From assembly GCA_023255875.1 (NCBI GenBank), contig JAGDVY010000039.1, positions 1-49,285 on the forward strand: 49,285 nucleotides of DNA, read 5' to 3'. Shown here piece after piece: positions 40,291-43,245 of this stretch. Numbering within the stretch: the first letter of the stretch is position 1; each line of letters begins with the position of its first letter. The notes under the pieces were generated by a model. That model made no database searches. It was not told the DNA's origin and saw only the letters and a program-made list of their open reading frames with translations. The translations under genes were made by a program, and so were the position numbers. Origin of the DNA: Hydrogenobacter sp. Lineage in GTDB: Bacteria > Aquificota > Aquificia > Aquificales > Aquificaceae.

Positions 40291-42156
40291 TTAGAGTTCT
40301 ATACTCACAAGCATACTGAAAGGGACCGCAAGACCGCTAAGAAGGAGAGTTCCCGGTCTTAAGGAAGGTAGAAGTTTCAAAAGCTCTGTTTCTTCAAAAA
40401 ATACGGACACTGCGTCAAGGTCGTTTTTAGTTATAAGCCTAAAGATGGCTTGGGTGTTGAGTTGAGAAAGTATGTACTTGCTTATATTGGCAGGCCTTTG
40501 GGTTATGGCTATAAGACCAACACCAAACTTTCTGCCTTCCAAGGCTATCCTTTTTGCCATAATGTAGGATAGGTTTTCTCTGCCAGAAGGTGCATCTAAA
40601 GCACCCTTTTCTGGAGCAAAGTTGTGGGCTTCTTCAAGCACCACAAGTCTCTTTTTACCGTCAAGCCTTGAAAGTATGAAGATCTCCTTCATAAGCAATC
40701 CCACAATGTTTGTTCTGGCATCAAGGTTGAGCACGTCCTTGAAATCAAACACAACTATGTTCATGTTTGAGCTCAATCCCTTTCGTAGCATATGATAAAC
40801 ATCTCTCTGATTTCTCACAGAAAATTCACCAAAATCCCGCATAAGAGCGGTCAGAAAGTCTTTTATATCATCTTTCAAGGATGTAGGAGCTGATGAGATG
40901 AGGAGATTTTCCAAGTCCATCTCTTTGTAGCATAGGAGTTCAAGGTCTGGTTTGAGATGCTTTCTAAGGTTTAAGAAGAAGGTTTTTTCTTCTGTTGTCT
41001 TTTCCCCTATACCCACACCGTAAGCTTTAAGAAGGTCCTTTATGTCTTCCACATTTATGGGAAAGAGGGTGTAAGGTATCTTTATATACTCTATGCTTTC
41101 TTTTTTCACCTTTAGCTTTTCGTAGTATTCTCCAAAGACATCAATAACAAAAAACTGGATACCCTCACCTTGTGCATGCTCTATAAATCTTCTAATGAAG
41201 GTAGTTTTTCCGGCTCCAGTAGTACCTATTACTGCCATATGCATGCTGGATACCTTTGTGATATCCATGTAAACATCAAGGTCTGTGTTTAGCAGTTTTC
41301 CAACACAAACCTTTTTTTCCATGGGATATCCAGAGAGGTTCATACTCATGATCTTTTGAATATCAGGATCGTCACCTTTTACCTTCAGAAGTTGTGTACC
41401 CACTTTCAGAGGTTTTAGAGGAACACCAAAATAACTTTCTTTTTCTTCCTTGACCTTTTTGTACTCACACAGAACTTTTACCTGACCTATTTTCACATCA
41501 CCCAATTCATTTGCACAAGCTTTTAGAAAGGCTACAAGCCAATCTCTGTCTGTGCTCCTTCCCGAAAAGAGGTTTTCCTCTAAGTTTCTAGTTCTTACAT
41601 TGGTAAGCTTGCAGAGTATGACTCCCCTTTCTGTTGGTGTCTTTAAAAAGCACTGTTCTGGAAGGTCTTCCAAAAGCAGGACCTGCGAGGATAGAGAGTT
41701 TTCTGAGAATACCACCAGAGCAACTGTATCTGGATATATCTCTTCTGATTCCTCCTTTAGCATTTGGTAAAGAAGAAGAAGTTCCTTGATTTTATCTGGG
41801 TCTGTGAGCTCTACAACTGCCTCAAAGTTTCCTTCCCGAGTTCCTGCATAGGTGAGGTTAGCAGAACCCACAAAAGCCCTACTGTCATCAATTATAAGGA
41901 ACTTAGCGTGAAGTCCTGGATTTAGGTATATTTTCCCCTTTACGCTCCTTACCGCCTTAAAAACCCTAAAGTCAGTAATGTCCATATCCTTCCTTTCCCC
42001 AGCCCTAAGAAAGACCTCTAGCTTTACATCTTCTCTGATATCTTGGAGAAGACTTTCAAGGATATCCCCCCTTATCCAAGCGGATACTATCTTGATGCTC
42101 TCTTTAGCGGATTGGACTGCCCTCCTTAGTTCTTCTATAAGCTCACCCTTTGCCAT
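40291..42156 (-). CDS. PLD-family nuclease domain fused to HerA/DUF87-type ATPase
   Basis: HKD motif HAKFLIIDDSRAFVGSANLT; Walker A GTTGAGKTTF; Walker B RLVVLEEAHNFAP; ITQRPANISKYILSQLNTQAIFRL. Confidence 0.9.
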   Translation of the reverse strand: MAKGELIEELRRAVQSAKESIKIVSAWIRGDILESLLQDIREDVKLEVFLRAGERKDMDITDFRVFKAVRSVKGKIYLNPGLHAKFLIIDDSRAFVGSANLTYAGTREGNFEAVVELTDPDKIKELLLLYQMLKEESEEIYPDTVALVVFSENSLSSQVLLLEDLPEQCFLKTPTERGVILCKLTNVRTRNLEENLFSGRSTDRDWLVAFLKACANELGDVKIGQVKVLCEYKKVKEEKESYFGVPLKPLKVGTQLLKVKGDDPDIQKIMSMNLSGYPMEKKVCVGKLLNTDLDVYMDITKVSSMHMAVIGTTGAGKTTFIRRFIEHAQGEGIQFFVIDVFGEYYEKLKVKKESIEYIKIPYTLFPINVEDIKDLLKAYGVGIGEKTTEEKTFFLNLRKHLKPDLELLCYKEMDLENLLISSAPTSLKDDIKDFLTALMRDFGEFSVRNQRDVYHMLRKGLSSNMNIVVFDFKDVLNLDARTNIVGLLMKEIFILSRLDGKKRLVVLEEAHNFAPEKGALDAPSGRENLSYIMAKRIALEGRKFGVGLIAITQRPANISKYILSQLNTQAIFRLITKNDLDAVSVFFEETELLKLLPSLRPGTLLLSGLAVPFSMLVSIEL

Positions 42157-42160
42157 GCCT

Positions 42161-42646
42161 TTAGTTATCTATCTTCTTTATCATTCTTATCCAGTAATTG
42201 AACCTGTCTTTGCTTTCAAAACCAAGAGATTTGTAAAAGTTTATAGCGGGATAGTTCTCTTCTCCTACCCAAAGTTCAGCGGTATCTAATCCTCTGCTTT
42301 TGAAGTACTCAAGGGCTTTTTCTATAAGAGCTTTTCCCACACCTTTATTTCTGTATTCGGGAAGTATGACTATCTCGTGAATGGCTCCTACTACCTTACC
42401 TTCCCTTTTGCTAAACCAATTTCCATCGCTGGCTACAAAACCAACGATCCTGCCATTATGCTTTGCTACAAATATACCTGCTATATCCCTTCTAAAGAGC
42501 CAGTTTAGATAAGCCAGCACATCATCCATGTGAGTGTAAGAGTACTCCTCAAGTCCTTTGTATCCTTCCAGATAGATGTGTGCAAGCTCCTGTATGTCCT
42601 TTTCTGAAGCCTTTTCTATGGAAAACTCTATAGCTTGTTTCTTCAT
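42161..42646 (-). CDS. GNAT-family N-acetyltransferase
   Basis: GAIHEIVILPEYRNKGVGKALIEKALEYFKSRG. Confidence 0.9.
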   Translation of the reverse strand: MKKQAIEFSIEKASEKDIQELAHIYLEGYKGLEEYSYTHMDDVLAYLNWLFRRDIAGIFVAKHNGRIVGFVASDGNWFSKREGKVVGAIHEIVILPEYRNKGVGKALIEKALEYFKSRGLDTAELWVGEENYPAINFYKSLGFESKDRFNYWIRMIKKIDN

Positions 42647-43245
42647 AACTTCTTAACCTTTACACCTTGCGGTATTTTTATCTTAAATAGGTCCTCTGAA
42701 GGCGAAAAGTTACTGGTCATACTCAAAAACTCTACAGTAGTGGTTGTTCCTTCTTTATCCTCAATCTTTATGGACTTTATGTTGTTTTCTACATCAAGCT
42801 CCACATAAACCCTGTAAAACTCATCATCTTTGAGTTTAGGCTTTAGTACCAAAGTGGTGTTTTTACCGTTTTTTATCTCTCCCATCTGCTGAAACACCTC
42901 ACTTATTGGTTTGGACAGTAGAAAAAGGGCTTCTATCACCGCAGATCTATTGTTCTCTACTCTGTCCAAAATGGCGCTTTTTTCCTGCGGATAGTAGATG
43001 AGTATATTCCTGCCATCAGACACTATGAGCATGCGCTCAGGCTGTTCGTACTCTATTCTGAACTTTCCTCCTTTTTGGGCGTAGAAAAAGCCTTTAGAGA
43101 TGTCTGGTTTGGGATACCAAGAGTAAGATACCTTCTGCACAAAGGATACCTTGATGGTTTTAGTCTCCTCAAGCTTTTTTTCCAAGAGTTGCAAAGTCTG
43201 TGCCAAAGATAATAGAGGAAGGAGCAACATTAAAAAGTATCTCAT
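42643..43245 (-). CDS. lolA: outer membrane lipoprotein carrier LolA family
   Basis: Signal peptide; KGFFYAQKGGKFRIEYEQPERMLIVSDGRNILIYYPQE. Confidence 0.88.
   Translation of the reverse strand: MRYFLMLLLPLLSLAQTLQLLEKKLEETKTIKVSFVQKVSYSWYPKPDISKGFFYAQKGGKFRIEYEQPERMLIVSDGRNILIYYPQEKSAILDRVENNRSAVIEALFLLSKPISEVFQQMGEIKNGKNTTLVLKPKLKDDEFYRVYVELDVENNIKSIKIEDKEGTTTTVEFLSMTSNFSPSEDLFKIKIPQGVKVKKL

Follow-up and report, generated by a model that had tools for sequence, protein, structure and literature searches.

HerA proteins drive separately encoded nucleases, and the HerA-NurA complexes characterised to date need no PLD domain. In the HerA-NurA of Deinococcus, the exit pore is made up of the HAS-barrels, to which a NurA dimer binds at a 6:2 stoichiometry (PMC9960219), while the complex of T. 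kodakarensis cuts both strands, its authors doubting a role in resection (PMC12977600). A search of the literature returned no paper describing a PLD-HerA fusion, though an earlier mention of the architecture is possible. That HerA drives a nuclease is already known; for a PLD domain in the same chain, with its catalytic residues conserved, present throughout a phylum and replacing the canonical HerA, the literature searched gave no precedent, and the arrangement is apparently new.

Here, we analysed a stretch of 49,285 nucleotides (in the following, the window) from Hydrogenobacter sp., an inhabitant of hot springs that belongs to the phylum Aquificota, in which one gene codes for a PLD domain and a HerA in a single polypeptide. 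Similar to the HerA-NurA systems of archaea and Deinococcus-Thermus, the protein contains a complete HerA with a HAS-like segment, NurA is encoded in the same genome, and linkage to nurA is found in a sister family; it differs in that a PLD nuclease is attached to the HerA N-terminus, that nurA is unlinked here and that the partnership with NurA is a putative one. In the Sir2-HerA and DUF4297-HerA anti-phage systems, the HerA ring likewise has its partner, an effector or a nuclease, coupled at the N-terminal side, but in our case the effector is fused and of the PLD type and there is no defence island; with 85.6 bits against a cut-off of 800 and no adjacent effector gene, the protein does not qualify as a member of these systems. 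It shares one HKD motif per chain with Nuc and NucT, which in contrast are small stand-alone nucleases without a motor. A similar PLD domain is also present in MkoB/MkoC of Mokosh and DrmC of DISARM (PADLOC E=6e-13 to 6e-11, residues 4-129), whereas the motor here is of the HerA/FtsK type and the other genes of both systems are absent.

Gene, domains and neighbours

The ORF list and translation confirmed the 621-aa reading frame at 40291..42156 (followed by a stop) that the initial annotation had described, and placed it on the minus strand, where it is read from 42156 to 40291; the plus strand of this interval is full of stops. The annotation had interpreted it as a single-chain PLD-HerA fusion, which was upheld by an HMM check with Pfam PLDc_2 and DUF87 both exceeding their curated cut-offs, and the motifs quoted at that time (HAKFLIIDDSRAFVGSANLT, GTTGAGKTTF, VVLEEAHNFAP and ITQRPANISKYILSQLNTQAIF) are all found in the ORF.

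The N-terminal single-HKD PLD nuclease domain (41752..42156, minus strand, about residues 1-135) matches Pfam PLDc_2 over residues 11-126 (E=1.7e-14) and the PLDc motif over residues 82-103 (E=6e-8), both above the curated cut-offs. The motif HxK(x4)D(x6)GSxN is formed by H83, K85, D90, G97, S98 and N100, and this motif and the domain together place the protein in the PLD (HKD) superfamily. With a profile built from 30 homologues, the single-HKD nuclease NucT (6ehi) aligned over profile positions 9-139 (E=1.8e-5). It is followed by a HAS-barrel-like segment (41287..41733, minus strand, about residues 142-290), for which hhalign found a counterpart in the N-terminal portion of canonical HerA from Aquificota (prob 91, E=1.2e-6), while the Pfam HAS-barrel model (PF09378) gave no match to the window protein. 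The RecA-like ATPase core of HerA (40294..41310, minus strand, about residues 283-621) shows the DUF87/HerA central domain at residues 283-492 (E=5e-22, over the curated cut-off) as well as Walker A (GTTGAGKT), Walker B (VVLEEAH), EGRK and QRP motifs. Residues 142-620 could be aligned end to end with canonical Aquificota HerA (prob 100, E=9e-40), and the 30-homologue profile matched solved HerA structures, the alignment with Sulfolobus HerA (4d2i) starting at residue 2 of the latter and position 148 of the profile. Membership of HerA is thus indicated by DUF87, both Walker motifs and QRP, and for the HAS-barrel by hhalign and 4d2i. From the alignments with 4d2i, NucT and canonical HerA, the protein therefore consists of a PLD domain and a complete HerA. 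An AlphaFold single-chain model of the window protein, computed with one relative, had a mean pLDDT of 33.7, too low for use.

A GNAT acetyltransferase gene (42161..42646, minus strand; Pfam Acetyltransf_1, E=5e-25) lies upstream, separated from PLD-HerA by 4 nt (42157-42160) as annotated, and overlaps by 4 nt with the co-directional lolA (42643..43245, minus strand; Pfam LolA, E=8e-31), the function of which is probably unrelated to PLD-HerA. The lolA-GNAT-herA operon suggested earlier exists as a gene run, in fact as the longer co-directional series BCAT-M28 peptidase-lolA-GNAT-PLD-HerA, but a wider meaning could not be upheld: lolA-GNAT stands by PLD-HerA in 5/5 genomes of the genus Hydrogenobacter and elsewhere only in genome G009, and is a local feature of this genus and one other genome rather than a functional signature. 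The neighbours (GNAT, lolA, M28 peptidase and argH) are indeed housekeeping and not defence genes, alongside which the earlier suggestion of DNA repair as a plausible role is supported. GNAT genes that look like orthologues of each other directly adjoin PLD-HerA in both of the subfamilies described below, upstream in subfamily A (42161-42646 in the window) and downstream in subfamily B (L055:1577-2104, G008), a contact that may reflect chance or a functional link.

Distribution and co-occurrence with NurA

Of the 61 Aquificaceae genomes sampled (family f1), 44 have relatives of PLD-HerA, and profile searches revealed the fusion throughout Aquificota; a contig scan with the single sequence alone had yielded a true relative (81%) besides a distant match from an archaeon. 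When 391 genomes were surveyed, roughly two thirds of them (250+) from outside Aquificota, only two further carriers came to light, G230 with a full-length protein and G164 with a weaker match of 758 aa. The fusion is sporadic in the phylum of G230, as it occurs in 1/25 genomes there. No relative was found in the viral contigs searched, and the phage records searched gave just two distant ATPase matches.

The phylogeny of fused and unfused HerA, which the initial annotation had proposed as a check, placed every fusion in one clade separate from canonical HerA (support 100/99). This clade is divided into subfamily B, comprising family f5 (probably Desulfurobacteriaceae) and scattered Aquificaceae, and a clade of the sister family f2 (probably Hydrogenothermaceae) and the Aquificaceae subfamily A, to which the window protein belongs. 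Since the genera within subfamily A are ordered broadly as in the Rho tree, it appears to be mostly vertically inherited, with at least one transfer, as the f2 genome G064 nests inside it. Subfamily A is nearly universal in its genera, and its flanking housekeeping genes vary from genus to genus.

The lack of an adjacent nurA, reported in the initial annotation, is correct for the locus, and nurA is unlinked in this genome, so that there is no herA-nurA operon. The implied independence from NurA was not supported, since a NurA is encoded elsewhere in the genome (G000:C12:22165-22869; Pfam NurA, E=9e-14) and the sister family carries PLD-HerA in a string with obgE and nurA. With this NurA found, a stand-alone enzyme no longer served as the main interpretation. 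In 10 genomes of two f2 genera (including G089, placed by coordinates alone), PLD-HerA, obgE and nurA follow one another in the same order and on the same strand, with 1.3-2.9 kb separating PLD-HerA from the nurA downstream of it; in this family, the gene that follows nurA codes for a small helix-hairpin-helix protein (HHH_3). Adjacency of obgE and nurA was also seen in 5 of 10 Aquificaceae genomes inspected, and the canonical HerA of f2 and f5 is not beside nurA among the loci listed. Across 23 NurAs that represent three families, the catalytic Asp/Glu/Asp positions do not vary.

Among 42 good-quality Aquificaceae genomes, with partial copies at contig ends scored as present, 32 have both fusion and NurA, five only NurA, five neither and none only the fusion (Fisher p=3e-4, uncorrected for kinship). 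As four of the five double absences fall in one genus, they represent only about two independent events. In genus g10, the complete or nearly complete genomes G010, G018, G025 and G037 yielded no PLD-HerA, NurA or AddB-size nuclease.

PLD-HerA is essentially the sole HerA of Aquificaceae, the exceptions being G028, G029 and G045 with a different HerA, which in G029 adjoins a long NurA-like protein. An AddB/RecB-size PDDEXK nuclease was not found in Aquificaceae, though families f2 and f5 have one. A second HerA module, a candidate defence system, comprises a protein of 548-606 aa followed by a HerA of 599-679 aa (L220:4335-7949 in G029, L224:2741-6339 in G082, L222:3693-7359 in G115 and L221 in G028). 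The long protein resembles NurA in G029, and its coordinates indicate the same for G082 and G115; in these three genomes a small conserved gene of 141-144 aa precedes the module. For the HerA of G029, the PADLOC match is 'Type III coevolved' HerA (E=1.4e-83).

Proposed mechanism and alternative readings

As the reading in the initial annotation required, the HKD residues are kept across orthologues: H83, K85, D90, G97, S98 and N100 are invariant in 32/32 homologues with identities of 33-84%, as are the main Walker A/B, EGRK and QRP residues, and at this divergence such invariance of the HKD and Walker residues argues that the fusion is not due to chance. Within the genus, where dS is unsaturated, the PLD domain had a dN/dS of 0.09-0.18, the HAS-barrel-like middle region one of 0.08-0.17 and the HerA core one of 0.05-0.11, so that all three are under purifying selection.

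We propose, with a probability of roughly one half, a translocase of the HerA-NurA type with an extra ring of nucleases, in which DNA is pumped by the ring towards both PLD dimers and NurA. The protein would act as a hexameric dsDNA translocase, each protomer bearing a single-HKD PLD half-site ahead of the HAS-barrel. By analogy with the dimers of single-HKD, Nuc-type enzymes, six half-sites or three PLD dimers per ring are plausible; these probable dimers would encircle the pore through which DNA leaves the ring and, together with NurA, would cleave it as it emerges. As the HAS end is both the exit and the NurA dock in HerA-NurA, the PLD domains should sit at the exit, beside NurA or competing with it, and they could block rather than assist its docking. 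In Aquificaceae, the fusion appears to have supplanted canonical HerA, and the unlinked NurA is its probable partner, the near-absence of other HerA proteins and the lack of AddAB-type nucleases in this family being the observed side of this reading. The substrate would be DNA with free ends, in the processing of double-strand breaks and/or the clearance of foreign linear DNA. With both strands being cut in T. kodakarensis and a resection role doubted there, resection and plain DNA destruction are both retained. The phylum-wide occurrence of the fusion, the replacement of ordinary HerA and the co-encoded NurA indicate that it is probably a variant machine for DNA degradation or repair. A broader and rather doubtful version sees an ancient Aquificota ring with two nucleases, one PLD domain per protomer and a docked NurA dimer, which replaced canonical HerA and AddAB/RecBCD in Aquificaceae. 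Some findings count against the leading reading: G230 lacks NurA despite its PLD-HerA, no NurA accompanies two divergent f3 copies either, and five good Aquificaceae genomes hold NurA without the fusion, nurA being unlinked in the genome of the window.

A self-contained nuclease against invaders, with HerA feeding phage or plasmid DNA to its own PLD domains without NurA, is a somewhat unlikely alternative that draws mainly on subfamily B. This older subfamily is sporadic (including G230) and more mobile than A, with restriction-modification and toxin-antitoxin genes among its neighbours: a type III DNA methyltransferase (E=3e-155) follows PLD-HerA at L054:2-4282 (G014), and an RHH/PIN pair adjoins it in G035 (L051). 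A broken subfamily-B copy (L234:3001-4936) is carried by plasmid ece1 (39,456 bp) of Aquifex aeolicus VF5 (G003), where it is annotated as two ORFs (a DUF87 protein and an ATP-binding protein), with an in-frame stop and with its N-terminal PLD portion lying in another frame. The likeness of the PLD domain to DISARM DrmC and Mokosh proteins, and of the ATPase to PADLOC HerA models, points in the same direction. Subfamily A, however, shows mostly vertical inheritance, is present in nearly all members of its genera, lies among housekeeping genes, co-occurs with NurA and is linked to nurA in the sister family, and at family level the anti-phage HerA equivalogs are unmatched (~85 bits against cut-offs of 800-850).

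Several further observations concern these copies. An ORF near the broken gene on ece1 (L053:7742-8197) has its own HxK...GSGN PLD-like motif. PLD-HerA is split or broken in G078 and G133, the decayed copy in G078 (L226) lying near restriction-like fragments that match no Pfam family. In G230, PLD-HerA (L209:13252-19000) adjoins a GIY-YIG protein and transposase-like genes, and at a distance of about 2.8 kb there is a UvrD helicase and PDDEXK_1 pair resembling AddA/AddB; the pair was rejected as a repair link, which would be weak, as oppositely oriented genes intervene.

Considerably less probable is a PLD domain that merely oligomerises the ring or guides DNA while NurA does the cutting. The presence of a NurA with intact catalytic residues would suit this role, and canonical HerA-NurA works without a PLD domain, but all HKD residues, beyond those required for the fold, are invariant in the 32 homologues, and purifying selection acts on the domain. 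A DNA-transfer or chromosome-handling ATPase, with PLD trimming or nicking the DNA in transfer, is very improbable: the HerA/FtsK superfamily does include DNA-donation ATPases such as the HerA-type TdtA of Thermus (as outlined in PMC5365140), and an HHH_3 protein follows nurA in the sister family, but secretion or conjugation genes were not found beside any subfamily-A copy examined and NCBIfam matches to DNA-import/export ATPases were far under the cut-off.

If a HerA-NurA-type translocase with additional PLD nucleases is the correct reading, its function would bear on DNA-end processing in bacteria without detected RecBCD/AddAB, and a single-polypeptide translocase-nuclease from thermophiles lends itself well to biochemical and cryo-EM work. 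The purpose of HerA-NurA machines, be it repair, defence or both, is a further point that it would inform.
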